This document shows positions 2,494 through 42,982 of a stretch of DNA of 64,000 nt, one piece after another. The notes below the pieces were generated by a model. That model was not told the DNA's origin. It saw only the letters and a list, made by a program, of their open reading frames with translations, and made no database searches. A program made the translations under genes and the position numbers. The first letter of the stretch is position 1. The number at the start of each line of letters is the position of its first letter. This DNA is from Salinisphaeraceae bacterium (GTDB lineage: Bacteria; Pseudomonadota; Gammaproteobacteria; Nevskiales; Salinisphaeraceae): assembly GCA_002683405.1 (NCBI GenBank), contig NYTH01000039.1, forward strand, positions 1-64,000, read 5' to 3'.

Positions 2494-2525
2494 GGGCCGG
2501 AATTGGTCGGGGTAGCAGGATTTGA
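2494..2525 (-). repeat. Truncated copy of tRNA-Pro 3' end plus flank
   Basis: These 32 bases are identical to 3071-3102. Bases 2504-2525 are the last 22 nucleotides of tRNA-Pro (3' half of the T-arm, acceptor strand and CCA) and 2494-2503 are its downstream flank. The match stops inside the T-loop and is followed by an unrelated hairpin cassette. Without 5' half or anticodon it cannot make a tRNA. Confidence 0.9.
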
Positions 2526-2640
2526 CCGGGAGGGCAGGAAGCCCGGACGGCGCGAGCGCAGCGAGTCCGAAGGGCGAGACGGATGAAGGACGAGCATGGC
2601 TCGGCCCCGGCGAGCGCCGCACAGGACGTGCGGCCGGGCG
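2526..2640 (+). repeat. Hairpin cassette (family alpha) abutting the tRNA-Pro fragment
   Basis: Reading away from the tRNA fragment, it contains GCTCGGCCCCGGCGAGCGCC at 2599-2618, shared with the cassettes at the tRNA-Thr and tRNA-Ser loci. Hairpin 1 is CGAGC-ATG-GCTCG (2591-2603). Hairpin 2 is GCCGCAC-AGGAC-GTGCGGC (2616-2634), a perfect 7-bp stem whose sequence differs from the equivalent stem at the other loci. It is probably a non-coding repeat; its function is unknown. Confidence 0.8.
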
Positions 2641-3080
2641 ACACTCAACCTTAGCGAGGACAGGAGTCCGAGCGACTCTCAAGGGAAATCGAAGCAGAGA
2701 CATCGCCACCTACGACCGTACTGACAGCCTCAGCAATGGATGTAGTGGTTGCCTACGTAACCGACGATTCATGGCGACGGGATTCCAGCCTGTTTTCTGC
2801 CGTAATACTCGCCTTGGCGGAGGGTTAGGGCTTTCCCGAGGCGGCCATTGGCTGTTTTCCTTCCGGTCCGCGTTTTGCGCTGATGGAAGGTGGTTGTTGG
2901 AGAAGGAATTCCGGCTTGGCCGTGGCGTAGAAATTGGCCGTGCGGAACGTTATAGCCTTCCGCGGGCGGCCATGTTCCGTTTTCCTCCCGGTCCGCGTAT
3001 AGCGTTGGAGAAGACGCGGTGCTGGAGGAGGAAATTCCGGCTTGATTGCTGGCGTAGGAACTACGTCGGTGGGCCGGAAT

Positions 3081-3157
3081 TGGTCGGGGTAGCAGGATTT
3101 GAACCTACGACCTCCGCCTCCCGAAGACGGCGCTCTACCAAGCTGAGCTATACCCCG
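3081..3157 (-). tRNA. tRNA-Pro (anticodon CGG)
   Basis: A 77-base cloverleaf on the minus strand. The acceptor CGGGGTA pairs with TACCCCG, the D-stem is GCTC/GAGC, the anticodon loop is TTCGGGA giving CGG, the T-loop is TTCAAAT, and CCA is encoded. It lies 5 bases after the ispB stop codon, so it is probably processed from the ispB transcript. Its 3' end is partly duplicated at 2504-2525. Confidence 0.96.
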
Positions 3158-31492: not shown

Positions 31493-31521
31493 TTGTCGGT
31501 CGGGCGCTGTTTCCCTATAAT
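31493..31521 (+). promoter_or_regulatory. Sigma-70 promoter for the tRNA-Thr/tRNA-Ser array
   Basis: TTGTCG (31493-31498), a 17-base spacer and a consensus TATAAT (31516-31521), followed by CCGCGCGCC. Such a GC-rich discriminator is typical of stringently controlled stable-RNA promoters. Transcripts would run through the pseudo-tRNA fragment at 31662 before the intact tRNA-Thr. The rest of 31322-31624 holds no gene. Confidence 0.85.
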
Positions 31522-31624: not shown

Positions 31625-31680
31625 GGAAGCGCGAGCGTGACTGGTTTTCAATGGCAGTAATGCCGGGATAGCTCAGTAGG
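31625..31680 (+). repeat. Upstream copy of tRNA-Thr leader and first 19 tRNA bases
   Basis: This 56-base segment matches 31774-31829 with three mismatches. Its last 19 bases (31662-31680, GCCGGGATAGCTCAGTAGG) are the 5' end of tRNA-Thr, ending exactly after the D-loop GG. The remainder of the tRNA is replaced by a hairpin cassette, so no tRNA can form here. Confidence 0.92.
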
Positions 31681-31759
31681 GCGAGCCGGATGTGGGACGA
31701 GCACTGCTCGGCCCCGGCGAGCGCCCGCCATGGAAGGCGGGCCGGATCGCGCAGGAATT
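31681..31759 (+). repeat. Hairpin cassette (family alpha) between the tRNA-Thr copies
   Basis: Starts right after the D-loop GG. Hairpin 1 is CGAGC-ACT-GCTCG (31698-31710). Hairpin 2 is CCCGCC-ATGGAA-GGCGGG (31724-31741). It contains GCTCGGCCCCGGCGAGCGCC, identical to the tRNA-Pro cassette, and ends in a GCGCAGGAATT stretch shared with the tRNA-Ser cassette. Confidence 0.88.
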
Positions 31760-31810
31760 TTAAGCGAGCACACGGAAGTGCGAGCGTGACTGGTTTTCAA
31801 TGGCAACAAT

Positions 31811-31886
31811 GCCGGGATAGCTCAGTAGGTAGAGCAGGCGATTCGTAATCGTCAGGTCGCAGGTTCGACTCCTGTTCCCGGCACCA
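31811..31886 (+). tRNA. tRNA-Thr (anticodon CGT)
   Basis: A 76-base cloverleaf: acceptor GCCGGGA/TCCCGGC, D-stem GCTC/GAGC, anticodon loop TTCGTAA giving CGT, T-loop TTCGACT, CCA encoded. It is preceded by a partial copy of its own 5' end 149 bases upstream. Confidence 0.97.
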
Positions 31887-31967
31887 TTTTTTGCTCTCGT
31901 AAACGTCGTGATCTTCTCTGGACGGTCATGAAATAAGCATCTTTATCGGCGAAAATAACGGCAGGAA

Positions 31968-32058
31968 GCCGGAAGGCGCTGGAATTCAGCGAGGGCAGGG
32001 ACAGCCCGAACGAAAACACCCGGTAGCGATTACGCAAACAGGAGAGGTGGCAGAGCGG
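31968..32058 (+). repeat. Upstream copy of tRNA-Ser leader and first 18 tRNA bases
   Basis: Matches 32119-32210 with few differences (period 151). Its last 18 bases (32041-32058, GGAGAGGTGGCAGAGCGG) are the 5' end of tRNA-Ser and stop right after the D-loop GG, the same breakpoint as at tRNA-Thr. The copy begins with GCCGGAAGGCG, the tail of a hairpin cassette, which hints at a further ancestral unit. Nothing recognisable lies in 31887-31967. Confidence 0.92.
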
Positions 32059-32137
32059 GCGAACCGGACAAAGGACGAGCACAGCTCGGCCCCGGTGAGC
32101 GCCCGCCAGGGATGGTGGGCCGGAAGGCGTAGGAATT
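32059..32137 (+). repeat. Hairpin cassette (family alpha) between the tRNA-Ser 5' copies
   Basis: Aligns along its whole length with the tRNA-Thr cassette. Hairpin 1 is CGAGC-ACA-GCTCG (32076-32088). Hairpin 2 is CCCGCC-AGGGAT-GGTGGG (32102-32119), where one pair has become G-T but the stem is kept. Confidence 0.88.
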
Positions 32138-32192
32138 CAGTGAGGGCAGGGACAGCCCGAACGACAACACCCGGTAGCGATTACGCATACAC

Positions 32193-32282
32193 GGAGAGGT
32201 GGCAGAGCGGTTGAATGCACCGGTCTTGAAAACCGGCAAGGGTGCAAGCCCTTCGTGGGTTCGAATCCCACCCTCTCCGCCA
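32193..32282 (+). tRNA. tRNA-Ser (anticodon TGA)
   Basis: A 90-base class II tRNA: acceptor GGAGAGG/CCTCTCC, anticodon loop CTTGAAA giving TGA, long variable arm AAGGGTGCAAGCCCTT, T-loop TTCGAAT, CCA encoded. Partial copies of its 5' end lie upstream and of its 3' end downstream. Confidence 0.97.
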
Positions 32283-32617
32283 ACATACAAAGGCCAGCAA
32301 AGTACAGATGGGCGCCGGTGGCTTAGTTCGGCACAATTCGAACCCACGAAGTGGGTCGACCGATTGGCCGGGAGCCAATCGGAACTGCCGAAGGCAGGCC
32401 CGAAGGGCGGAGCACAGGGATGTGCGGAGTAATCCCACCCTCTCCGCCAACATTCAGATGCCGGCAAAGTACAGATGGGCGCCGGTAGCTTTATTCGGCA
32501 CAATTCGAACCCACGAAGTGGGTCGACCGATTGGCCGGGAGCCAATCGACAGCTGCCGAAGGCAGGCCCGAAGGGCGGAGCACAGGGATGTGCGGAGTAA
32601 TCCCACCCTCTCCGCCA
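32283..32617 (+). repeat. Two tandem 167/168-base units each ending in the tRNA-Ser 3' end (family beta)
   Basis: The units end at the CCA of 32449 and 32617, and each last 19 bases (AATCCCACCCTCTCCGCCA) copy the T-arm/acceptor/CCA end of tRNA-Ser. Each unit also holds a 16-base inverted copy of the tRNA's T-arm (32336-32351, 32503-32518). In unit 1 hairpins follow in series: CCCAC-GAA-GTGGG, CCGATTGGC-CGGGA-GCCAATCGG (32360-32382), CTGCC-GAA-GGCAG, GCCC-GAA-GGGC and GCAC-AGGGAT-GTGC. The layout recalls the E. coli tyrT repeats. No gene is seen up to the fba start at 32739. Confidence 0.9.
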
Positions 32618-42740: not shown

Positions 42741-42982
42741 TTATCGGTTGCTAAAGAATTGAAAACCCGCGGAATTAGTCGATCGGCGGGTAGCCGTCGG
42801 TGGCTCGGCGGCGGGCAGTATGGTATAAACCGCCCGCGCTCGCGGCAACGCGGGCCGTTTTTTGACTCTTTACATACCATTCCACACGCAGTTCGGCACG
42901 GCCGGTTGGGTGTCCAGCGCCGCTTTAACGGGTGATCTGGATTTCCGGTTGGGAACTGCGGAGGCATAACCCGGAGCACAAT
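42741..42982 (+). promoter_or_regulatory. rpsB promoter/leader with an early hairpin
   Basis: An extended -10 (TGG-TATAAA, 42821-42829) lacks a clear -35. Just downstream, CCCGCG (42833-42838) can pair with CGCGGG (42849-42854), followed by six T residues (42858-42863), like a terminator or attenuator. A TTGACT at 42862-42867 could be the -35 of another promoter. The leader is about 120-150 bases; rpsB leaders in gammaproteobacteria are known to bind S2 for autoregulation. Assignment of start site is uncertain. Confidence 0.5.

Follow-up and report, generated by a model that had tools for sequence, protein, structure and literature searches.

The window, by which we mean the whole 64,000-nt stretch of DNA analysed here, carries intact genes for tRNA-Thr(CGT) (31811..31886, + strand) and tRNA-Ser(TGA) (32193..32282, +) in close company with four truncated tRNA copies: a 19-nt 5' fragment of tRNA-Thr (31662-31680, +), an 18-nt 5' fragment of tRNA-Ser (32041-32058, +) and two 19-nt 3' fragments of tRNA-Ser (32431-32449 and 32599-32617, both +). 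A first-pass annotation made from the letters alone had described such an array, with two intact and four truncated tRNAs joined to hairpin-rich DNA at spacings of 149, 151 and 167/168 nt; all of its members lie where it had placed them, and the spacings measure 149 nt (Thr), 151/152 nt (Ser 5') and 167/168 nt (Ser 3'). The promoter that it had assigned to the upstream region is likewise present as a sigma-70-like site (31493..31521, +; TTGTCG-17-TATAAT, 10/12 consensus positions), with one such promoter-like site found against 0.4 expected in shuffles.

On the 5' side of both genes the truncated copies are joined to cassettes of a kind that we term type A. Upstream of tRNA-Thr, type A cassette 1 (31679..31773, +; hairpin II CATGGAAG, tail hairpin CACGGAAG) is enclosed by a 56-nt target duplication (53 nt identical), whose left copy (31625..31680, +) ends with the tRNA-Thr 5' fragment and whose right copy (31774..31829, +) runs into the intact gene, the GG at the 5' end of the cassette being common to cassette and D-loop. 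Upstream of tRNA-Ser, the left copy of a 91-nt duplication (31968..32058, +) comprises a cassette tail, flank and the tRNA-Ser 5' fragment; type A cassette 2 follows, and then a second copy of cassette tail and flank (together 32057..32191, +; core match 32057-32123). Against an expectation of 0.07, the window has three occurrences of a 22-nt core, GACGAGCANNGCTCGGCCCCGG. Downstream of tRNA-Ser lie two cassettes that resemble the known RtT repeats (32335..32449 and 32502..32617, both +), each with an antisense T-arm segment (32336-32351 and 32503-32518, respectively) and one of the two tRNA-Ser 3' fragments.

A related arrangement, also anticipated by the first-pass annotation, is found at tRNA-Pro(CGG), where the intact gene (3081-3157, - strand) is accompanied by a 22-nt 3' copy (2504..2525, -) and by an insert (2526..2708, +, outer limits set by eye) that contains type A and sits in the truncated copy's T-loop; its core match (2572-2637) and 22-nt core (2589-2610) run in reverse relative to the tRNA. 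Several units of a dispersed repeat of about 100 bp (CCGGAATT..CCTCCTCCA..GCGGACCGGGAGGAAAACGG) flank the tRNA-Pro copy at 2300-2900 of the window; this repeat recurs, diverged, near other tRNAs, with a similar sequence downstream of tRNA-Lys(CTT) (L034). The window further holds an ordinary Rfam family, t44 RNA (RF00127, 62.3 bits), at 42865-42970 (+).

Truncated tRNA Copies Recur across the Genome

All 43 tRNA genes of the genome and their flanks were searched for truncated copies of their own ends, and each case was read. Such copies lie near 15 of the 43 genes, in agreement with the earlier suggestion of a genome-wide habit, and about 23 end-copies were seen (14 nt, <=1 mismatch, within 1.2 kb) where the chance estimate is well below one. 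The 5' copies stand upstream of Ser-GGA (two), Ser-GCT (two), Ser-CGA (two), Ser-TGA, Thr-CGT, Gly-CCC, Gly-TCC, Arg-CCT and Arg-ACG, as well as Thr-TGT across a contig break, and the 3' copies downstream of Ser-GGA, Ser-CGA, Ser-TGA (two), Gln-TTG, Gln-CTG, Lys-CTT, Met, Gly-CCC, Gly-TCC and Pro-CGG. The 5' copies with type A cassettes end at the D-loop GG, and the 3' copies mostly start in the T-loop. The cleanest case is tRNA-Arg(CCT), where a perfect direct repeat of about 74 nt, comprising flank, promoter-like region and tRNA positions 1-19, encloses a cassette of about 100 nt. The Ser-GCT, Ser-CGA and Arg-ACG 5' copies carry different cassettes or none that we recognised; those at tRNA-Ser(GCT) (L058) and tRNA-Ser(CGA) (L061) are structured cassettes other than type A, the latter retaining the anticodon arm inside the cassette. 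The contig ends C19 and C27 mark assembly breaks inside the tRNA-Thr(TGT) cassette array, and array lengths in draft genomes are thus probably underestimated.

The 22-nt core has eight genuine occurrences in the 3.72-Mb genome, seven at tRNA genes or fragments and one at the start of murG; the cores are thus not mostly away from tRNA genes, and the family is found in relatives as well. A ninth match (L009) lies inside the pgk gene and is due to chance. The strong type A copies are similarly distributed, with nine of ten at tRNA genes or fragments and the tenth at murG. There the opening 29 nt of the gene, with its ATG, stand on either side of the cassette, and the second copy continues as intact murG.

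Type A Is a Structured Family with Targets beyond tRNAs

No Rfam family matched the type A cassettes, and the weak Rfam matches seen, to sX4 and to plastid families, come from the tRNA itself. The ten type A copies of the genome share a covarying structure, with a covariation score of 0.231 vs. 0.082 when shuffled and 95.2% of cells paired. Searched as an exact string, the core gave no match in viral contigs and a single one among 85k species, inside a coding gene of Bifidobacterium; since the exact core is thus confined to its own genome, a covariance model was needed and was built from the ten own-genome copies. With it, type A was found in 54 of 81 relatives (E<=1), the richest of them with 19 copies, and, across Gammaproteobacteria, in 27 of 321 genomes (E<=1e-4); we read 89 loci from the relatives and 19 from the class-wide search. 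In a blastn search against phages and plasmids, the annotated ones among the matches listed were mostly tRNA genes, and we regard these as matches to tRNA, not to the cassette.

The cassettes are about 90-160 nt long and gene-less. They stand after the GG in tRNA D-loops, reversed in T-arms and once in an anticodon loop, but also near the ends of conserved genes, including antisense at gene 3' ends; other orders follow this rule too, as among the 19 class-wide loci 11 are in tRNAs, seven of them sense in the D-loop and four antisense in the T-arm. Targets verified by Rfam or NCBIfam comprise tRNAs, RNase P RNA (rnpB, 298 bits), the glycine riboswitch aptamer (67.8 bits), murG, mnmG, aroC, D-Ala-D-Ala ligase, a HAD hydrolase, mtnC, cca, a nirB-like gene, a SelW-like gene and thyA. 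A response-regulator C-terminus, nuoJ, a homoserine dehydrogenase leader and a glycosyltransferase-like gene were assigned by sequence reading only. The same target base recurs across genera in murG, cca, mtnC, the HAD hydrolase and the response regulator. At one riboswitch locus (L120, genome G048, 1434-1529) the truncated glycine aptamer together with the cassette start still scores 33.6 bits against an Rfam cut-off of 32.

In the open-licence literature on rtT-like repeats, CsrA-linked repeats and tRNA-targeting palindromic elements we found nothing on these cassettes, although an earlier description is possible. Type A is the second family at this locus, one that we could not find described, and there is a real chance that it forms a class of its own.

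The 3' Cassettes Resemble RtT RNA

The Rfam RtT model (RF00391) aligns over its full length to both 3' cassettes of the window, ending with GAGTAATCC and the tRNA 3' end, at 22.3 and 21.1 bits. As these scores fall under the gathering score of 45, the cassettes are RtT-like and not RtT members by Rfam's rule. Five weak RtT matches, of which the best scores 22.3 bits, occur in the genome: the two window copies, and a single one beside each of Ser-GGA, Gln-TTG and Ser-CGA. In relatives of the same order, RtT copies are clear and comparably placed, reaching 75 bits downstream of tRNA-Tyr and scoring lower at Arg, Ser and Gln, and class-wide an RtT match at E<=0.001 is found in 56 of 321 genomes.

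The likeness to RtT RNA, which is known as rttR at E. coli tyrT/tyrV and is set free when the tRNA transcript is processed, is one of sequence and extends to the architecture: tandem units of a tRNA 3' end and a structured cassette lie downstream of an intact tRNA with a period of about 170-180 nt and a T-loop junction (..GAGTAATCC), and each unit in the window ends with its own tRNA's 3' end. The E. coli tyrT/tyrV locus, as we read it, has the same T-loop junction. Genome G009 shows the insertion form directly: at locus L088 (reverse complement, about 1150-1640) an RtT-like element interrupts the T-loop of one tRNA-Gln gene, and an intact tRNA-Gln comes next. The same locus holds a further RtT repeat besides the interrupted and the intact gene. 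The type A cassettes of the D-loop side, by contrast, form a separate family that occurs in protein genes too; the 5' and 3' cassettes are two different families.

Target Duplications and Possible Traces of Recombination

For 36 of 99 elements (our own copies plus the relatives' loci), a repeat ending exactly at the element's first GG was found above the 97.5% point of a null built from random anchor points; its second copy stands on the element's right and runs on into the intact gene. The repeats vary in length from 12 to 88 nt, all ending at the same GG, and the remaining 63 elements have no clear repeat. The element lies between a truncated and an intact gene end, with its 5' end always at the inner side of the truncated copy. 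The target from the GG past the gene end is present twice, so that one copy of the gene is whole and the other truncated. Natural occupied and empty sites exist as well: in a single genus, five species have a cassette at the glycine-riboswitch site (in a sixth the site is split over contigs), and five others have the site in single copy.

Divergence between the copies tells of further processes. Where the target codes for protein, truncated and intact copies diverge chiefly at synonymous sites (26 vs. 8 codons; 7/3/27 by codon position), and the riboswitch copies are 98.5-100% identical within a genome and mostly 85-91% between genomes, the sister pair G038/G039 excepted; recombination or recurrent insertion thus also shapes these loci. 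From sequence comparison, the copies may be homogenised by recombination, insertion may recur at the same base, or recombination may carry whole units from one species to another. At mnmG (L105) the two copies match perfectly over 31 nt, beyond which they change to starts that are homologous but not the same, a switch that speaks for recombination at this site.

An inserting enzyme was sought through the presence of two protein families. The Y1 transposase (PF01797) is present three times in the genome of the window, and it gave no match at E<=0.001 in G023, G036 and G062, which hold 16, 19 and 9 element matches. Variable-length target repeats with a precise 5' end are what a retroposon would leave on target-primed reverse transcription, but the reverse transcriptase expected with it (PF00078) had no match in the genome of the window, G017, G022 or G071. 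Presence tracks the element in neither case, and we rejected both as the inserting enzyme.

Paired GGA Hairpins and a Possible Link to CsrA

Each CsrA/RsmA dimer binds two hairpins whose loops contain GGA (ANGGA), and small-RNA sponges expose such ANGGA hairpins (PMC7366521); small RNAs from E. coli rRNA operons also interact with CsrA (PMC8144298). Two hairpins of type A expose loops of the form C-A-N(0,1)-GGA-N-G, that is, the CsrA/RsmA motif. The motif is found in hairpin II of 89 of 105 copies, a count that is biased because hairpin II belongs to the search model, and in the tail hairpin, which lies outside that model, of 81 of 105, against 0.055 expected per 75 nt of flanks and one of 105 for the tail motif on the opposite strand; 13 copies of a subfamily with ATGCATG loops were omitted. 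The loop of hairpin I holds GGA in none of 99. Five copies at the orthologous riboswitch site show compensatory stem substitutions with unchanged GGA loops, and covariation at one orthologous site amounts to 0.230 vs. 0.087 when shuffled.

As a test of transcript function, antisense copies were compared with sense copies, and they keep their loops about equally (hairpin II, 10/15 vs. 29/34, p=0.25; tail, 11/15 vs. 26/34). The csrA gene is present in the genome of the window, as it is in 33 of 36 element bearers and 14 of 18 non-bearers, and one 99%-complete bearer has no match; csrA presence does not separate bearers from non-bearers and is not clearly linked to the element. Neither the window nor 13 own-genome loci gave an Rfam match to CsrB, RsmY or RsmZ. 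That the motif-bearing hairpins bind CsrA/RsmA is a prediction from their sequence to which we give slightly less than an even chance, and a sponge role that benefits the host appears unlikely to us; both estimates are lowered by the retention of loops in antisense copies, by the failure of csrA to separate the bearers and by the near-complete bearer that lacks it.

Discussion

We consider that the locus is probably an accumulation of two short, gene-less, structured mobile cassette families that have inserted in tRNA genes and spare their target by duplicating it. The part of the first-pass annotation that invoked small elements using tRNA genes as targets thereby finds support, as related cassettes lie in tRNA loops of many genera with target duplications. 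In the mechanism that we propose, type A would join its 5' end to a target GG, preferring tRNA loops (sense in the D-loop, antisense in the T-arm), and its insertion would come with a long target duplication; the RtT-like cassettes would do likewise on the 3' side, where the T-loop is the target. Arrays with periods of 149-200 nt might then grow as cassettes insert again or as the repeats recombine unequally. Selection on single-strand structure keeps the cassette, with its outer covarying hairpin and two ANGGAN-loop hairpins on one strand only. Most likely, this means that it is a mobile element whose recognised form is RNA or single-stranded DNA and whose GGA hairpins would bind CsrA/RsmA, and the chimeric "tRNA-like" RNAs would be by-products of insertion.

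A different origin for the gene ends would follow if homologous recombination spread preformed units of gene end and cassette between species, the gene ends serving as homology arms and the truncated copy being the displaced native end. The almost exclusively synonymous differences of truncated coding copies, the switch within mnmG (L105) and the occupation of the same sites in murG, cca, mtnC, the HAD hydrolase and the response regulator of different genera all argue for it, but perfect repeats that include local noncoding flank (about 74 nt at Arg-CCT, 68 nt at L120, 56 nt at L123) point to local duplication, and the first insertion is left unexplained; we regard this account as possible rather than probable, and as it is compatible with mobile cassettes, the two can act together. 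It is somewhat less likely still that the cassettes serve as regulatory RNAs derived from tRNA precursors, whether rtT-like or CsrA/RsmA sponges; processing of the tRNA transcript would then release GGA-hairpin RNAs that titrate CsrA in pace with tRNA synthesis, and selection would keep them beside tRNA genes. Paired CsrA-type hairpins with conserved loops, a structure kept at an orthologous site, a resident csrA gene and the precedents of sponge RNAs with ANGGA hairpins (PMC7366521) and of rRNA-operon small RNAs with CsrA (PMC8144298) speak for such a function, but antisense copies, which are absent from the gene's transcript, keep their loops as often, copies lie in protein genes too, and Rfam models of CsrB, RsmY and RsmZ had no match in the loci searched.

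The first-pass annotation had also offered tRNA mimics or decoys for RNase P and tRNA-processing enzymes, and a transcript through the array would indeed hold pieces that start or end like a tRNA. The 5' copies, however, are without T-arm and acceptor 3' strand and the 3' copies without the 5' half, and the same cassette is found in murG, mnmG, cca, aroC, thyA, rnpB and the glycine riboswitch as well as antisense at gene 3' ends; mimicry as the purpose of the cassettes is not supported and is very improbable. More improbable yet are attachment-site scars of tRNA-targeting integrative elements or genomic islands. The integrases of such elements act at the T-loops and 3' ends of tRNA genes, which they restore, and the array shares with them insertion in a tRNA gene that is made whole again while a truncated copy is left behind, but the inserts, at about 100-160 nt, are far too short to contain the integrase gene that lies next to the att site of an island, and are conserved across genera in structure as in presence, D-loop junctions occur on the 5' side too, the local flank is duplicated, and protein genes are also hit.

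On the reading of mobile cassettes that we prefer, these sequences work like a small, gene-sparing mobile hairpin element, and their known kin would be the tRNA-linked rtT-like cassettes, which the 3' cassettes resemble, and short hairpin repeats. REP/REPIN, RPE and NEMIS sequences are short, dispersed, noncoding hairpins, and RPEs likewise enter coding genes; type A differs from these, of which REP/REPIN go with RAYT transposases, in its long, variable, gene-sparing target duplications and in having no tie to a Y1 transposase, and the variable repeat length (12-88 nt) also sets it apart from ordinary transposases. With CsrB/C and RsmX/Y/Z, small RNAs that bind CsrA and whose expression is controlled by GacA/UvrY, it shares several hairpins per RNA that expose ANGGA in the loop, but it has only two of them and is dispersed at tRNA and housekeeping genes with flanking target repeats.

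The phenomenon seems to be broader than the rtT repeats of E. coli tyrT, which look like a single instance of it: units of truncated tRNA and structured cassette are found beside many tRNAs, upstream as well as downstream. In type A, clear covariation marks a structured-RNA family, the target rule is simple, and occupied and empty sites occur naturally, so that mobility, excision and CsrA binding are directly testable. If the link to CsrA is true, a mobile element moves binding sites of a global regulator between housekeeping genes. A more far-reaching proposal, which we put forward tentatively and hold to be unlikely as a whole, is that gene-less mobile RNA cassettes are widespread in Gammaproteobacteria, target tRNA loops and other conserved RNA and protein genes, rebuild the gene by a long duplication whose copies recombination keeps in step, and with paired CsrA-binding hairpins parasitise or rewire the CsrA network.

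Two further features of type A were seen in other genomes. The subfamily whose loops read ATGCATG in place of GGA comes after a CCCCTCCCCCTTGCGGGG-like hairpin and has no target duplication (L159-L163, L168, L169, L172, L176 and others, in genomes G017, G056 and G071). Genome G161 (L258-L264) has, at several sites, type A elements in inverted pairs that are nearly identical and bounded by ACAGGATTAAGCA and TGTAAATCCTGT, and these resemble a palindromic MITE or REPIN.
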